A stretch of DNA of 64,000 nt. Source: Azospirillum brasilense (GTDB taxonomy: Bacteria > Pseudomonadota > Alphaproteobacteria > Azospirillales > Azospirillaceae). The stretch spans positions 849,001 to 913,000 of the forward strand of contig NZ_CP032346.1 of assembly GCF_005222205.1 (NCBI RefSeq). The letters are read 5' to 3'. The position numbers and the translations under genes were made by a program. The notes under the pieces were generated by a model. It ran no database searches. It saw only the letters and a list, made by a program, of their open reading frames with translations, and was not told where the DNA came from. Of this stretch, positions 58,361 to 64,000 are shown piece by piece. Position 1 is the stretch's first letter. Each line of letters opens with the position of its first letter.

Positions 58361-60124
58361 GACACTGCTGGCGAAATGCTCCGGGGTTTGCGATGGTGGC
58401 GCGCTGCTCGGGTTGAAGGGGTTTTGCCCCCTCCAGAAGGACGCCAGCCATGTCCCTTCGCCTCAGCTTGGCCACTGCCGTGCCCGAGGAAACGGCCAAG
58501 GTTGCCCGGGCGGCGTTTCCCCGCGGCTGCCTGCTGATGGATGTGCGCGACAGCCTTGGGCCCGTCTTCGACGACACCCGTTTTGCTCGGCTGTTCTCGA
58601 CGCGCGGCCGCCCGGCCGAAGTCCCGTGGCCACTGGCGCTGGTCACCCTGCTCCAGTTCGCCGAGAACCTGTCGGATCGCGACGCCGCCGATGCGGTGCG
58701 AGCCCGCCTGGATTGGAAGTACCTGCTGGCCTTGCCGCTCGACGACCCGGGCTTCGACAGCACCGTCCTCTGTGAGTTCCGGGCCAGGCTCGTGGACGGG
58801 CATGCCGAGCACGAGTTGCTGGACGCGGTGCTCGCCGTGGCTGTCGCCCGCCGCCTGGTTCGCCCGCGAGGCCGCCAACGCACCGACTCCACCCACGTTC
58901 TGGCCGCCGTTAAGATGCGCAGCCGTATCGACGCCGCTACCGAAGCGTTCCGGCAGGCGTTGAACGTGCTCGCCGTCGCCGCGCCGGCTTGGCTGCTTGG
59001 CCAGACGCGGCCGCACTGGGCCGATCGCTACAGCGGGCATGGTGATTGGGGGCACGCCGCCAAAGCGCGGGCCGGCCGTGACGGCCATGTTCGGGAACTG
59101 GGCGAGGATGGCCATCATCTGTTGGCAGCGATTTGGGCGGACGAGGCTCCGGACTGGCTGCGCCGGCTGCCCGCGGTGGAGATCCTACGCCGCATCTGGG
59201 TCCAACAGTTCTACCTGTGCGACGACGGCATCCGTTGGCGCGGTCCCGGCGAAGGCTATGCGCCGTCGTCACGCTTCATCAGCTCGCCGTACGATGCGGA
59301 TGCCCGCTACGGGCGCAAGCGAACCATGACCTGGGTCGGCTACAAGGCTCACCTGACCGAGGCCTGCGACGAAGGACGGCCGCGGATCATCACCCACGTG
59401 CAGACCGAAACCGCGCCCACCGCCGATGGCGAGGTGACGACACCGGCCCATCGGGCTCTGGCCGCCAAGGGGCTGCTGCCGGCCGAGCATCTGGTGGACA
59501 CCGGCTACCTCGACGCCGCTCTTCTGATCGAGGCCACACGGGACTTCGGCGTTGACCTGGTCGGGCCAACCCGCCCCGACCTGCAATGGCAGGCACGCCG
59601 GGGAACGGGCTTTGCCGCCGCCGCCTTCCAGGTCGATTGGGACGCCCAGCACGTGACGTGTCCCAGAGGGGCCAAAAGCTCGGGTTGGACGGCGAGCACC
59701 GAGTTCGGCTGGGAAACGGTGAAAGTGAAGTTCTCCCAGGCTGACTGCAAGCCGTGTCCGAACCGCGCGGACTGTGCCGGTCCGACGGCGTCGCGCCGGG
59801 TGATGACGTTGCGCGACCGACGGGAGTTCGAAGCGCTTCAGGCCGCGCGCAAGCGCGAACGGACCCCGGAGTTCCGGGCCGTGCATGCGCTGCGGGCCGG
59901 AGTGGAGGCGACTCTGTCCCAAGGGGTGCGCAGCTTCGGCATGCGCCGGGCTCGGTACATCGGTCTCGCGAAGACCCGTCTCCAGCACGTTGCCATTGCC
60001 GCCGCCATGAACCTGGTCAGGATCGGCGACTGGCTGGCCGGCGTCCCGATCGCGCCAACCCGGCGGTCGCACTTCGGTCAACTCGTCGGGCTTGCAGGCG
60101 CCACCTGATTTCGCCAGCAGTGTC
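58361..60124 (+). mobile_element. IS1182-family insertion sequence
   Basis: A 1764-bp element ending in inverted repeats GACACTGCTGGCGAAAT. The hexamer AAACTC flanks both ends (58355-58360 and 60125-60130), a likely target duplication. One transposase gene fills it. Confidence 0.82.
58450..60108 (+). CDS. IS1182-family transposase
   Basis: A 552-residue transposase. FARLFSTRGRPAEVPWPLAL and LDDPGFDSTVLCEFRARL are characteristic of IS1182; QRTDSTHVLAAV holds a catalytic Asp. A cysteine group (ADCKPCPNRADCAGP) lies before the C-terminal RAGVEATLSQGVRSFGMRR with the Glu. No frameshift or stop is visible, so it may be active. The start ATG at 58450 is the first good one after the left repeat. 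Confidence 0.9.
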   Translation: MSLRLSLATAVPEETAKVARAAFPRGCLLMDVRDSLGPVFDDTRFARLFSTRGRPAEVPWPLALVTLLQFAENLSDRDAADAVRARLDWKYLLALPLDDPGFDSTVLCEFRARLVDGHAEHELLDAVLAVAVARRLVRPRGRQRTDSTHVLAAVKMRSRIDAATEAFRQALNVLAVAAPAWLLGQTRPHWADRYSGHGDWGHAAKARAGRDGHVRELGEDGHHLLAAIWADEAPDWLRRLPAVEILRRIWVQQFYLCDDGIRWRGPGEGYAPSSRFISSPYDADARYGRKRTMTWVGYKAHLTEACDEGRPRIITHVQTETAPTADGEVTTPAHRALAAKGLLPAEHLVDTGYLDAALLIEATRDFGVDLVGPTRPDLQWQARRGTGFAAAAFQVDWDAQHVTCPRGAKSSGWTASTEFGWETVKVKFSQADCKPCPNRADCAGPTASRRVMTLRDRREFEALQAARKRERTPEFRAVHALRAGVEATLSQGVRSFGMRRARYIGLAKTRLQHVAIAAAMNLVRIGDWLAGVPIAPTRRSHFGQLVGLAGAT

Positions 60125-60206: not shown

Positions 60207-61806
60207 TTGTCCAAATCACTGCTTTCGTTGCTCCCGGCCGGCCTTGTCGTCGACCGGGTTTCCGTTGAGGCGGATCGCGTCGCCGTCACGGCCCACGTGC
60301 GGGCCGCAAGGGCGGTCTGTCCGCTATGCCATCGCTCCTCCGTGCACGTCCACAGGCGGTACTCCCGATATCTGGGCGACCTGCCGTGGCAGGGCCGGGT
60401 CGGTGAACTGCACCGGCAGGTCCGCCGCTTCCGGTGTGCAACGGCGGGCTGTCCCCGCCGCATCTTCGCCGAATGCCTGCCCGCCGTGGCGGCGCCCCGG
60501 GTCCGGCGCACCCGCCGGCTCGCCGAGGCGCAGCGCGCCATTGCACTGAGTGCCGGCGGAAATCCTGGCGCCCGGCTGTCCACCCGGCTCGCCATGCCGG
60601 TCAGCGGCGACACGCTGCTGCGCTTGATCCGCGCGGCGCCCGTGGTGCCGGCCCCGACGCCCCAAATCATCGGGATCAATGACAGGGCGTGGCGCCGGGG
60701 CAAACGCTACGGCACCATCGTCGTCGATCTTGAGCGCAACCGCCCCATTGATCTGCTGCCCGACCGCCAGGCCGGCACCGTGGCAGCGTGGCTCAAAGCG
60801 CACCCCGGCGTGGAGATCGTCGCCCGTGACCGGGCCGGCGCCTACGCTGATGGCATTCGCCAGGGTGCGCCGAAAGCGATTCAGGTGGCCGACCGCTGGC
60901 ATCTTCTGCGCAATCTCGGCGATGCGCTGGGCGAGGTGTTCACCGCTCAGCAGCGGGACTTTCGGACCGCCGCCCAACGAGCCGTTGCTCCGGCCGCCAC
61001 CGAGGCATCGAAGCCGCCGGTTCGACCATCTCGACCAGCAACCCGCGGCGAGCAACGGCGGGCGGCAACCCGGGCCGCACGGCTCGCCCAATACAATGAG
61101 GTCGCCGCGCTGAACGCGCGCGGCTGGTCACAGACGCGCGTCGCCCAAACGCTCGAACTCGACCGCAAGGCGGTGCGGGGCTGGCTGCGTGCCGGACAAC
61201 CGCCGTCCTGGGATCAACCAGCGACAGGCAGCGTGCTCGATCCGTTCACCGGCCACTTGTCGCGGCGTTGGGACGAGGGCTGCCACAACGCCGCCGGGCT
61301 GTGGCGGGAGATCCGCACCCTGAGCCTCACCGGACAGCGAAGCGTCGTTCGGGACTGGGCACGGCCACGGCGCCAAGCTCTCCCCACGGCTCCATCCGGA
61401 GGAGCGGCCTCTTGGCGGACGCCTTCACGGCGTCTGGCACCGTGGCTGGTCGTGGCTGAGGACAACGAGATCGATGCGACCGAACGCGCCTTCGCCGCGG
61501 CCCTGATCGCCGGCGCGCCCAAGCTGACGGGGACCATTGAGGCGGCGCGGGCTTTTCGAGTCATGGTGCGCGGAAAGCGGGCCGGCGACTTGGACGGTTG
61601 GCTTGCGGCCACCGACGAAACAGCCCTGGCCGGCTTCGCCGCGGGCCTCAAGCGCGATTTGGCCGCGGTACGCGCGGCGTTGACCTTGCCGTGGAGCTAC
61701 CGGACCGGTGGAGGGACAGATCAGCAAGCTGAAGACGACCAAGCGCACCATGAACGGGCGCGGCGGCTTCGATCTGCTGCGCCATCGTGTTCTGGAAGCC
61801 GCCTGA
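60207..61806 (+). pseudogene. ISL3-family transposase, frameshifted near the C-terminus
   Basis: An ISL3-type transposase. The N-terminal zinc ribbon (CPLCHRSSVHVHRRYSRYLG and CATAGCPRRIFAECLP), IGINDRAWRRGKRYGTIVVD and VARDRAGAYADGIRQGAP are as expected. An extra T at 61699 shifts the frame after TLPWS. Without it the protein would continue TGPVEGQISKLKTTKRTMNG, containing the last catalytic Glu, and end at 61806. As it stands the frame runs on to 61895 with unrelated sequence. The start is a TTG at 60207. Terminal repeats could not be fixed. Confidence 0.82.
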
Positions 61807-61904
61807 ACGGCGGCGCTCCAGCCATGCCGCTGCACCGGGAATGCGGATGGACCCCACGAAGCCCTTCCAGAGCGCTGATGAATGATCCGGGTTAGGGACG
61901 AGTC

Positions 61905-62492
61905 CTACGGTGCGTTCCTGAGGCTTGCCGCGGCGACCTGGTGCTTTTCGCACCCGCCGCACTGGCCGCAGGCGAAGCGGGCGACGTGGCAGGAGAAGGT
62001 GTAGCCAAACAGTTCCCGTGGGAAGGCGCTTACAGCCAGCAGTTCCTGCGTGGTCATGTGGATCGCCGGAGCGGTGACGCGGACGCCTCCTTCCTGGAGG
62101 GTCATGAGGCGGTCCATCGCAGCGACGAACGGAGGCTTCCCGTCAGCGTGCATGTCCGTGGAGACGGCCCCCAGCATGACCTCGCGGAGCCCCTCGTTGA
62201 GGAGGCGCATGCCGGCGAGGGTGATGAGCATCTGGTTCCTGTATGCCCAAAACTCCGCCGCCTGACCGAGGCCGGAGGCCGCCGCGCCGGCCAGTTCGCC
62301 CATCCCGAGGGAGGAGAGGTCCGCCCTCACCACCTCGTGGCGAAGGCCGAGCGCGCCCGCTATGGCGGAGGCGGCCGCGACCTCGCCCTCGGCCGGCCGC
62401 TGCCCGTAGTCGACGGTCACGCACACGTCCGGGCGCAGCCAGTAGGCGAGCGACGACGACTCGACGCCGCCCGAAAGCAGCAATGCCCTCAT
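61905..62492 (-). CDS. QueC-like 7-cyano-7-deazaguanine synthase-family enzyme
   Basis: A 195-residue PP-loop ATPase. The ATP-binding loop SGGVESS is at residues 7-13. VTVDYGQRPAEGEVAAA and FWAYRNQMLITLAGM are QueC signatures. Four zinc-binding Cys are at 168, 175, 178 and 181 (CHVARFACGQCGGC). It is shorter than housekeeping QueC (about 220-230). Housekeeping QueC makes preQ0; QueC relatives also occur in defence systems such as Qat and type IV CBASS. Its ATG overlaps the stop of the PfkB-NDT gene (ATGA), and no queD, queE or queF is present, so a specialised role is likely. Confidence 0.82.
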   Translation of the reverse strand: MRALLLSGGVESSSLAYWLRPDVCVTVDYGQRPAEGEVAAASAIAGALGLRHEVVRADLSSLGMGELAGAAASGLGQAAEFWAYRNQMLITLAGMRLLNEGLREVMLGAVSTDMHADGKPPFVAAMDRLMTLQEGGVRVTAPAIHMTTQELLAVSAFPRELFGYTFSCHVARFACGQCGGCEKHQVAAASLRNAP

Positions 62493-63679
62493 GACATGGT
62501 CGCCCAGACCGCACGGTAGAGTGCCGTGGAGACGTCCCCGACGACCTCGCAACCAGTTCCCTCCAACATGGCCAGATCGCCGTCCGCCACGTTCTCCGCC
62601 AGTGCGACGACGGGAATCCCGCGTGCCCTGGCATAGCCGACCTCAAAGATCGTCCCGGGATCCCGGCCGTCAACAAGGGCGAGGACAGCGGAACACCGAT
62701 CGAGGCCGGCAAGGTCGGCGGGGGCGACGACCGATGCCGGAAGGTTCGTGCCAACCTCGTGCAGCGGCGAGAAGACCCCGGCCCCCAAGCCCATGAGCGC
62801 CGCCCGAGTCTCCTCCACCAACCATCGCTGCCCCGTAGTGAAGAACGGCCCAGCCAAGTAGACTTGGCCAGGCCCCATCCCAATGGGCACGGGGACCAGC
62901 GCCGCGAGCCCCGACCGGTCTGGCAGCGGCAGGTGCATGTCGTCGACATACGCGCAAACCGACCTGGACGCCATGTCGGCAGCCTCGGCCGGCGCCAAGC
63001 CCAGTTCCGCCCAATAATGGGCGAACGCGGCGCTGAACACGTCACCCGAGCCGATCTTGAACACCCGTTCGGAGCGGTAGGCAGGAACCTCCGCGTTGCC
63101 GGTCCCCGTGTGGTGCACCAGGGCGCCGCGGCCCCCCCGCTTGACCACCACCACCTCCGCCCCCTCTCGGGCGGCGAAGGTGGCCGCGGCCGCGGCCACG
63201 TCCGCTGGGCCAGTCGCGGCGAGCAGTTCCTGCTCGTTCAGCACGACGGCTAGGTGGCCGGCGGTGGACCCGTTGGCCCGATAACTCGCGTCTCGCCCAG
63301 CACCCTGGGGGTCGAAGACGACCCTTTCGCCGTCGACGACCGCCTCGCCCTCCACGAAACCGAATCGCAGCACGACCTTCCCGGAGACGCTTAGTGTTGC
63401 ATTCTGCGTGGGTTGAGCAGGAAACTGCCTTGCGGCGGACATCGGGTGGAGATACTCGAAAACGATCTCCTCGGCGATCTCAGTCACGTCGGCCGTGACA
63501 CCGAAACTTGCCGCCGTGGCACGCACGTCCTCAGCCCACCCGGCATGGGCGTAGGTGTGGAGACTGCTCCCGGGCGAGAGGCGGCCCACCGCCGCTGCGG
63601 CTCTACCTCCCGAGCCGAAAATCCTGTGCCAGTTTGGCCTGAGGCAGATTTCCCGGTAAGACCCGCCCGCGACGATCAC
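62489..63679 (-). CDS. PfkB-type kinase fused to a nucleoside 2-deoxyribosyltransferase
   Basis: A 396-residue two-domain protein. Residues about 1-250 are a PfkB/ribokinase fold: VLNEQELLAATG, VVVVKRGGRGALVHH, and GSGD at 210-213, with Asp213 as the expected base. From 273 a nucleoside deoxyribosyltransferase-like domain begins (VYLAGPFFTTGQRWLVEETR, ALVDGRDPGTIFEVGYARA), with Glu346 as the likely catalytic residue. The combination suggests sequential handling of a nucleoside: base removal or exchange and sugar phosphorylation. It overlaps the genes on both sides by 4 bp (ATGA each time), so all three are made together. I know of no characterised function for this fusion. Confidence 0.82.
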   Translation of the reverse strand: MIVAGGSYREICLRPNWHRIFGSGGRAAAAVGRLSPGSSLHTYAHAGWAEDVRATAASFGVTADVTEIAEEIVFEYLHPMSAARQFPAQPTQNATLSVSGKVVLRFGFVEGEAVVDGERVVFDPQGAGRDASYRANGSTAGHLAVVLNEQELLAATGPADVAAAAATFAAREGAEVVVVKRGGRGALVHHTGTGNAEVPAYRSERVFKIGSGDVFSAAFAHYWAELGLAPAEAADMASRSVCAYVDDMHLPLPDRSGLAALVPVPIGMGPGQVYLAGPFFTTGQRWLVEETRAALMGLGAGVFSPLHEVGTNLPASVVAPADLAGLDRCSAVLALVDGRDPGTIFEVGYARARGIPVVALAENVADGDLAMLEGTGCEVVGDVSTALYRAVWATMS

Positions 63680-64000
63680 AGCCCGACCCTCCTCAGCAGG
63701 ACGATGACCTCGCTGCCCCTGACCGACTTAACCAGTCCCTTGTAGGAGACACCGTCCTTGAGGCAACGGATGAGCCTGGTCAACCCGGGAAAGGCGGTGA
63801 TGCTGCCAAGCACCTGGTGGCTCGGTACCGTCCGGCAGACGACGGACGAGTAGACCCCCGCCGAATCAACCAATCCCACATCAAGGGTGTCGCCCGTGCG
63901 GACGGACGCCAACGGCGGGTTCCTAACCCCCGAAAGGCTGATCTCCTCGCTGAAGTCGCAACTGCCGGTGTCAGGCGGAAGGGGTGGGTCTGGTAATGGA
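63676..64000 (-). CDS. Unknown protein, C-terminal part (continues beyond window)
   Basis: The minus-strand frame is open from the right edge to the stop at 63676, at least 108 codons. The tail reads VRTGDTLDVGLVDSAGVYSS, TVPSHQVLGSITAFPGLTRL and GLVKSVRGSEVIVLLRRVG, a beta-rich pattern that could be a small barrel. I do not recognise a family. The start is outside the window; TTG at 63912 is unlikely to be it because the frame stays open further upstream. Its stop overlaps the PfkB-NDT ATG by 4 bp, so it is the preceding gene of the same operon. Confidence 0.6.
   Translation of the reverse strand, partial: PLPDPPLPPDTGSCDFSEEISLSGVRNPPLASVRTGDTLDVGLVDSAGVYSSVVCRTVPSHQVLGSITAFPGLTRLIRCLKDGVSYKGLVKSVRGSEVIVLLRRVGL

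Follow-up and report, generated by a model that had tools for sequence, protein, structure and literature searches.

Protein-nucleobase conjugation is so far known in one prokaryotic immune system and suspected in a second. In type IV CBASS, a short QueC homolog, Cap9, is accompanied by the TGT-family protein Cap10 and by a CD-NTase that begins with MGGS; the roles of the Cap9 YxDC residues, with Asp as the base reader, have been described (PMC13279940). In QatABCD, QatB begins with MGTS and often carries an N-terminal tail of 30 to 90 residues that is predicted to be disordered, and a G2D mutation abolishes defense in both systems (PMC13279940). QatC, of about 400 amino acids (aa), has Thr/Thr in place of Tyr/Asp (PMC13279940 and PMC13329287). 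A pairing of QueC with a PfkB-NDT protein (a sugar kinase fused to a nucleoside deoxyribosyltransferase) together with HTH genes was reported in July 2026 as PF06508 Cluster 4, for which purine salvage was suggested (PMC13329287). We analyzed an operon at the right-hand end of a 64,000-nucleotide stretch (the window) of the Azospirillum brasilense genome, which comprises 7.2 Mb in six contigs; the window is C2:849001-913000, C2 being contig NZ_CP032346.1. The full operon consists of a divergent HTH gene and genes for an OGG-like glycosylase, a small protein that we call SML, a PfkB-NDT fusion, and a QueC-like enzyme. It is probably a third QueC-driven system for conjugating a nucleobase to a protein N terminus and would most likely be antiviral; we infer the substrate, the product, and the role in defense from the sequences.

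The operon shares with type IV CBASS a short QueC with the base-reading Asp, a glycine-tipped partner, and a partner enzyme that handles nucleobases. It differs in that the partner is SML and that an NDT-kinase is found instead of a TGT; neither a CD-NTase nor a Cap10-type TGT is present among the 10 home-locus proteins scanned. As in QatABCD, a partner with an N-terminal tail and a conserved tip goes with a PP-loop QueC, but the home QueC-like enzyme differs from QatC in length (195 aa) and at the Thr/Thr pair, SML has no recognized fold, and the QatA ATPase and the TatD-type QatD are likewise missing from the 10 proteins. The home locus is a member of PF06508 Cluster 4, with which it shares the Cys motif, the PfkB-NDT neighbor, and the frequent HTH gene; the difference lies in the reading, since that paper offers purine salvage (PMC13329287). 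An earlier note on this DNA had held that the system is not described under a known name. This is true only in part: the QueC/PfkB-NDT pairing is in print, and we found no mention of the rest. The main text of PMC13329287 contains none of the words “glycosylase,” “HhH,” and “nitroreductase,” and SML or its tip is not mentioned in the parts of that paper examined. Among the titles and abstract openings listed in searches of the open-licence literature, supplementary tables aside, none joins PfkB-NDT, QueC, OGG, and a glycine-tipped partner.

The operon is not a chance arrangement; the same gene order recurs across many genomes. The earlier note had described three genes joined by ATGA overlaps, with a PfkB-NDT fusion in the middle. 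The three genes are real, and the middle one matches both domains (Table 1); the QueC/NDT overlap is indeed ATGA, whereas the NDT/SML overlap is GTGA. The operon is longer than three genes, with the glycosylase gene upstream of SML and a second SML/PfkB-NDT pair beyond. Extending the DNA rightwards, as the earlier note had proposed, completed the first SML gene (SML1) and added the OGG and HTH genes, pieces of queE and queD, a PIN gene, and the second pair (SML2 and NDT2), which lies about 4 kb away in the opposite orientation. The window holds the 3' end of the operon, and the front lies outside.

A genome scan yielded 211 PfkB-NDT relatives. The best 80 of the 211 loci were analyzed with their flanks, using profiles grown from the home proteins, and the other 131 stand outside our counts. 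At least 2.5 kb is available on both sides of 65 of the 80 loci, all of them anchored on PfkB-NDT. QueC is present in all 65 (the co-occurrence for which the earlier note had suggested a neighborhood search), OGG in 63, and SML in 62. An HTH gene occurs in 48 of these loci, a nitroreductase-like gene of PF00881 in 31, and another PfkB-NDT in 19. The corresponding counts for the 52 loci of the set below 90% identity are 52, 50, 49, 36, 28, and 10. SML appears to be missing from three loci (L032, L052, and L072) only because an overlap filter removed their SML matches. A previous QueC count of 55/55 was discarded because those loci had been selected for having QueC. PfkB-NDT proteins as such are common (2408 matches among 8000 candidates scored). 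The SML profile matches at 57 places in the 45 operon-carrying host genomes, a count of matches rather than of operons.

SML has a characteristic N-terminal tip. Start codons were chosen by Shine-Dalgarno score and codon alone, and the set comprises 68 distinct proteins, after removal of copies and of two loci (L041 and L067) with no start meeting this rule. Position 2 is Ser in 43, Gly in 16, Ala in 6, Pro in 2, and Thr in 1, and position 3 is Gly in 59 of the 68. With one Shine-Dalgarno score and threshold, 50 of 55 SML proteins begin with an M[SGA]G tip, versus 12 of 534 other genes of at least 150 aa, although the stretch searched for starts differed (for SML, any start leaving at least 95 aa; for the others, the first third of the open reading frame, up to 90 codons). 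The tip is seen in 2/49 NDT, 4/35 QueC, 2/49 OGG, 1/20 nitroreductase-like, and 0/11 HTH proteins. Residues 2 to 26 contain on average 6.5 Gly in SML, 3.3 in NDT, and 2.0 in other genes. Distant SML proteins have similar tips (MGGGG and MGGGS in haloarchaea, MSGSGSS in Synechocystis, and MSGSGGS on a Pseudomonas aeruginosa plasmid), and home SML2, with MSG, fits the motif. In its sequence, the tip with its glycine-rich tail resembles the MGGS and MGTS tips of the Cap9 and QatC partners.

SML could not be assigned to a known family. The PDB yielded one match, at an E value (0.78) that carries no meaning, and weak Pfam matches were each obtained with 1 of 58 members. Profile comparison with HIRAN domains gave 16% when 4 HIRAN sequences were used and 51% (P 1.5e-4) when 34 were used, a weak lead only; six control comparisons with QueC, OGG, and PfkB-NDT profiles stayed below 1%. 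Haloarchaeal SML proteins (L112 and L113) have long tails and, by eye, seemingly two tandem SML domains, and a Halorubrum SML has a very long acidic tail.

The QueC-like enzyme is not the canonical enzyme of queuosine synthesis. It scores 65.5 bits with TIGR00364 (cutoff, 150.3) and has HADG instead of YPDC, and a canonical QueC is encoded elsewhere in the home genome (C1:1071355, 257 bits). Its profile matches QueC 2pg3 (1.5e-18) and Cap9 9nto_B (5.5e-16), and the PADLOC model PDLC00911, for Cap9-like short QueC, matches it as well (2.7e-15). All four zinc-site Cys residues and the PP-loop are present, as the earlier note had stated. In 35 aligned sequences, the zinc motif CHx5CxxCxGCxK has invariant C168, C175, C178, C181, and K183, with H169 and G180 conserved in at least 90%; Y29, Q31, and E37 are also invariant, which by our count corresponds to YGQ(x)5E versus the YGQ(x)6E of Cluster 4. 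RNQ, D113, and D117 are retained too. The HxDG motif aligns with the YxDC of QueC and of Cap9 9nto_B: the base-reading Asp is retained, and the position of the stacking Tyr is usually occupied by His, otherwise by Tyr or Phe.

In first-copy PfkB-NDT proteins (NDT1), D322, D340, G342, and E346 and the PfkB GxGD motif are retained in 54 of 54. Among 10 second copies examined, GxGD is retained in all, E346 in three, and D340 in three. Because the kinase is kept while the NDT site is lost in these second copies and in two sister proteins (see below), the conserved function is not nucleotide cleavage alone, and the NDT half could just as well serve to bind a nucleoside or to build one. The nucleoside-degrading activity proposed in the earlier note does not follow from this pattern. 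In the OGG-like protein, K185 and D204 are invariant in 28 sequences, and the profile matches PDB 9o00 (3.7e-15). This Lys and Asp (in GxGxK and ILDxH) align with those of solved OGG-family lyases, where they are the catalytic residues. Type IV CBASS, too, has OGG among its ancillary genes.

Four loci carry a sister cassette: L118, in genome G114, and three on Rhizobiaceae plasmids, namely L116 (R. etli pB), L163 (from Agrobacterium leguminum), and L164 (from Neorhizobium). The gene order is PfkB with a degenerate NDT half, TIR-TGT, OGG, QueC, ThsB-type TIR, and then a SLATT/DUF4231 or Mrr gene. The proteins of R. etli and G114, which were aligned, retain GxGD and have lost most of the NDT site; for A. 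leguminum and Neorhizobium, the NDT half was judged by eye. The TGT part was identified by scanning in R. etli, where TIR and TGT are in two frames, and in G114; the A. leguminum and Neorhizobium candidates are annotated as TIR only and have the same gene length as in G114. PADLOC TGT and QueC models match sister proteins (1.1e-22, 3.6e-23, and 7.2e-29). The last gene is SLATT in G114 (PF18184 and PF18181), DUF4231 in A. leguminum and Neorhizobium, and Mrr-type in R. etli (PF04471, 1.4e-4). DarT, AbiEii, and further TIR genes are found as neighbors.

The sister cassette is immune by gene content, and it has three enzyme families (PfkB-NDT, OGG, and QueC) as well as a small partner with a glycine tip in common with the window operon; it differs in its ThsB-type TIR partner, its TGT, and its effector (SLATT type) or nuclease (Mrr type) gene. 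The ThsB-TIR proteins begin with MGGGSSGSW or MGGGGGG. With this gene content, the sister loci tie the module to immunity. The NDT site is lost where a TGT is present, as if one replaces the other. The cassette looks like an undescribed TIR immune system that uses the QueC reaction; a TIR-TGT system of this kind was not found in the same set of titles and abstract openings.

The operon is mobile and its distribution is patchy. PfkB-NDT occurs in 5 of 194 related genomes, including the home genome and one of the sister type (G114), and 6 of 398 genomes from the phylum contain SML, home included. Among 72,556 plasmid records, 36 carry PfkB-NDT; 19 of these are conjugative, 4 are mobilizable, and 13 are nonmobilizable, with many Rhizobium near-copies among them. 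The 50,697 phage records searched contain no PfkB-NDT. PfkB-NDT reaches cyanobacteria and haloarchaea. The main-type operon adjoins multiubiquitin/E2 genes on a Synechocystis plasmid, has TIR or Cap15 genes near it on haloarchaeal plasmids, and lies within the transfer region of a Roseivivax plasmid; its immune neighbors comprise TIR, GajB-type helicase, dGTPase, Mrr, FRG, multiubiquitin/E2, and Cap15. In a quick tree, the Synechocystis copy falls in a starred group with gamma- and betaproteobacterial copies, and a starred branch separates the A. agricola copy from the home and A. oleiclasticum copies, which are themselves separated by unstarred branches only. The IS-rich accessory zone described in the earlier note holds for the stretch directly downstream of the operon, which our transposase survey covered and which contains two transposase genes.

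We propose the following mechanism. SML would be a small carrier or sensor, with its M-[S/G/A]-G tip, glycine-rich tail, and weakly HIRAN-like domain. After removal of Met1, the tip would enter the QueC-like enzyme, which, like Cap9, would use ATP to join a guanine-like base (7-carboxy-7-deazaguanine [CDG] or a related one) to the N-terminal amine. PfkB-NDT would stand where type IV CBASS and the sister loci have a TGT: its NDT half would bind the tethered base or provide it with a sugar, which the kinase half may phosphorylate. The substrate of the OGG-like lyase would be a base of this kind, either on the tag or in DNA. The earlier note's idea of a base- or protein-modifying conflict system is supported by the SML tip, the sister loci, the plasmid carriage, and the patchy distribution. 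If SML proves to be a third substrate, and ThsB-TIR a fourth, the QueC reaction would act as a general switch that activates immunity in prokaryotes, and its substrates (CD-NTase, QatB, SML, and TIR) as well as its nucleobase handlers (TGT and NDT) would be interchangeable. The proposal would also replace the purine-salvage suggestion for the whole PF06508 cluster with a testable hypothesis.

Several observations weigh against this proposal. (i) Home SML1 begins with MSK and has no glycine in its tip, and Ser2 predominates in SML, whereas the acceptor in CBASS is Gly2. (ii) The home PP-loop is SGGVES, versus SGGxDS in most of the 35 aligned relatives. (iii) QueC is over the cutoff in 33 of 45 host genomes and below it in 12, and QueC, QueE, and QueD were all not found in six of the latter (G198, G200, G202, G210, G216, and G226), although the QueE queries also missed 2 of 6 QueC-positive hosts and some QueC-less hosts are draft or metagenome assemblies. 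This weakens host-made CDG as a firm premise; since six hosts have no visible CDG route, the base may be other than CDG, as is suspected for QatC. (iv) Flanking genes were compared with controls in samples of 120/211 flank and 113/173 control genes (seven long control genes left out). Within the best 25 of 96, 118, 115, and 54 families, the flanks include UvrD, Mrr, integrase, ParB, conjugation, GajB-type, and dGTPase families, and the controls include chemotaxis, transport, and metabolism. However, one UvrD/GajB-type match and two mad3 matches came from the controls, versus three and three from the flanks, so that this test, which yields no enrichment figure, is only suggestive of an immune context. 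(v) No paper reporting a phage test of this gene set was found in the open-licence literature.

Other explanations have to be considered. PfkB-NDT might be a toxic effector that depletes nucleotides upon infection, with the other genes sensing or restraining it. NDT-like effectors are known in retrons, the NDT active-site residues are retained in all 54 first copies, and dGTPase-like genes lie near several loci. However, the second copies preserve GxGD and mostly not Glu346, two sister proteins likewise keep the kinase, and neither the SML tip nor QueC is explained; we consider depletion unlikely. A bolder version of conjugation, which strikes us as about as unlikely, would have the operon build a nucleotide on SML: the QueC-like enzyme would add the base, NDT the deoxyribose, and PfkB the phosphate, and the protein, ending in a deoxynucleotide, could enter, cap, or trap phage DNA ends, while the OGG-like enzyme would cut it from host DNA. 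Under this reading, the sister loci would constitute a second new family, with a tag of this kind arming a TIR signaling enzyme.

Purine or nucleoside salvage, in which PfkB-NDT would exchange and phosphorylate nucleosides, the QueC-like enzyme would aminate a purine, and the HTH protein would regulate, is the published reading of Cluster 4, about 89% of which has PfkB-NDT neighborhoods (PMC13329287), and the NDT and kinase sites of first copies are intact. A core salvage pathway would be expected in most related genomes, but the operon is patchy and plasmid borne, the sister loci are TIR/SLATT cassettes, and the glycine-tipped protein and the OGG-type lyase are left without a role. No purine-salvage families were recognized in the neighbor lists, which were samples or best matches. 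Salvage is in our view similarly improbable. The least probable alternative is a small-molecule route, in which a modified (7-deaza)guanine nucleoside poisons phage polymerases, OGG clears host DNA, and SML serves as carrier or chaperone. QueC, NDT, the kinase, and the nitroreductase-like gene would make a plausible route, and a VUT-type transporter gene adjoins the operon in L117, L046, L051, and L052. However, a free nucleoside can be synthesized without any M[SGA]G tip on a partner protein, and the sister loci pair TGT with a lost NDT site and have a tipped ThsB-TIR standing in for SML.

We also considered whether the operon is part of a queuosine cassette. In contrast to the earlier note, which saw no queuosine genes nearby, a queE remnant with a frameshift and stops (TIGR04508, 2.6e-36 and 3.4e-18) lies about 1.2 kb past the window edge, beside the tail of a queD gene (PF01242, 3.3e-7). 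Both pieces are broken, and the queE piece recurs in no other locus compared: apart from the piece itself, phmmer recovered nothing but the home genome's core queE, a search that would miss distant queE subfamilies. The cassette idea was therefore rejected. Among the 12 QueC-less hosts, QueE is clear in one (G237) and weak in another (G221, 1.1e-4), a QueD-type PTPS is present in 6, and a VUT-type transporter is present in 10; VUT is the family of the queuosine-precursor transporter YhhQ. The transporter genes that adjoin the operon belong to roseobacters and Microvirga (Table 1).

Table 1. Positions of the features discussed (plain numbers, window; C2, contig of the home genome; L, locus compared)
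Feature	Position	Strand	Match	Remark
Transposase DDE_Tnp_1_6	58450-60108			Directly downstream of operon
Transposase ISL3	60207-61895			Directly downstream of operon
QueC-like enzyme, 195 aa	61905-62492	Minus	PF06508, 3.2e-19
PfkB-NDT fusion (NDT1), 396 aa	62489-63679	Minus	PF05014, 1.6e-16; PF00294, 1.3e-9	GTG start
SML1	63676-64000 (whole gene, C2:912676-913023)	Minus	Family alignment	3' end in window
OGG-like HhH glycosylase	C2:913058-913879	Minus	PF22175, 3.3e-13	Beyond window
Divergent HTH gene	C2:913812-914156	Plus		Beyond window
Broken queE/queD pieces	C2:914199-915031	Plus	TIGR04508, PF01242	Beyond window
PIN gene, 494 aa	C2:915019-916503 (L004:15019-16503)		PF13638	Beyond window, between both SML/PfkB-NDT pairs
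SML2	C2:916655-916999	Plus		Beyond window
NDT2, second PfkB-NDT	C2:916996-918243	Plus		Beyond window
Sister cassettes	L118:3709-8994; L116:7001-12553; L163, L164:7001-12824
VUT-type transporter gene	L117:9399-10040; L046, L051:12399-13040; L052:7824-8432			Adjoins operon
Gene annotated as DNA adenine methylase	L115:10237-10914; L114:10224-10973; L165:10234-10911			After OGG

SML1 comprises 115 aa from a TTG start (Shine-Dalgarno GAGGT; MSKIRPD...), and its first 23 bases lie past the window end. The PIN protein has no relative among the loci compared. A gene annotated as DNA adenine methylase follows OGG in three loci, on two Pseudomonas plasmids and one cyanobacterial plasmid, and is of the D12 class by Pfam in L115. 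In seven loci (L017, L018, L019, L021, L022, L024, and L028), the SML2/NDT2 pair is followed by two further genes. One encodes an FRG domain (PF08867, from a scan of L028), and the other is small and resembles pPIWI-associated nucleases (PF18166, from a scan of L017).

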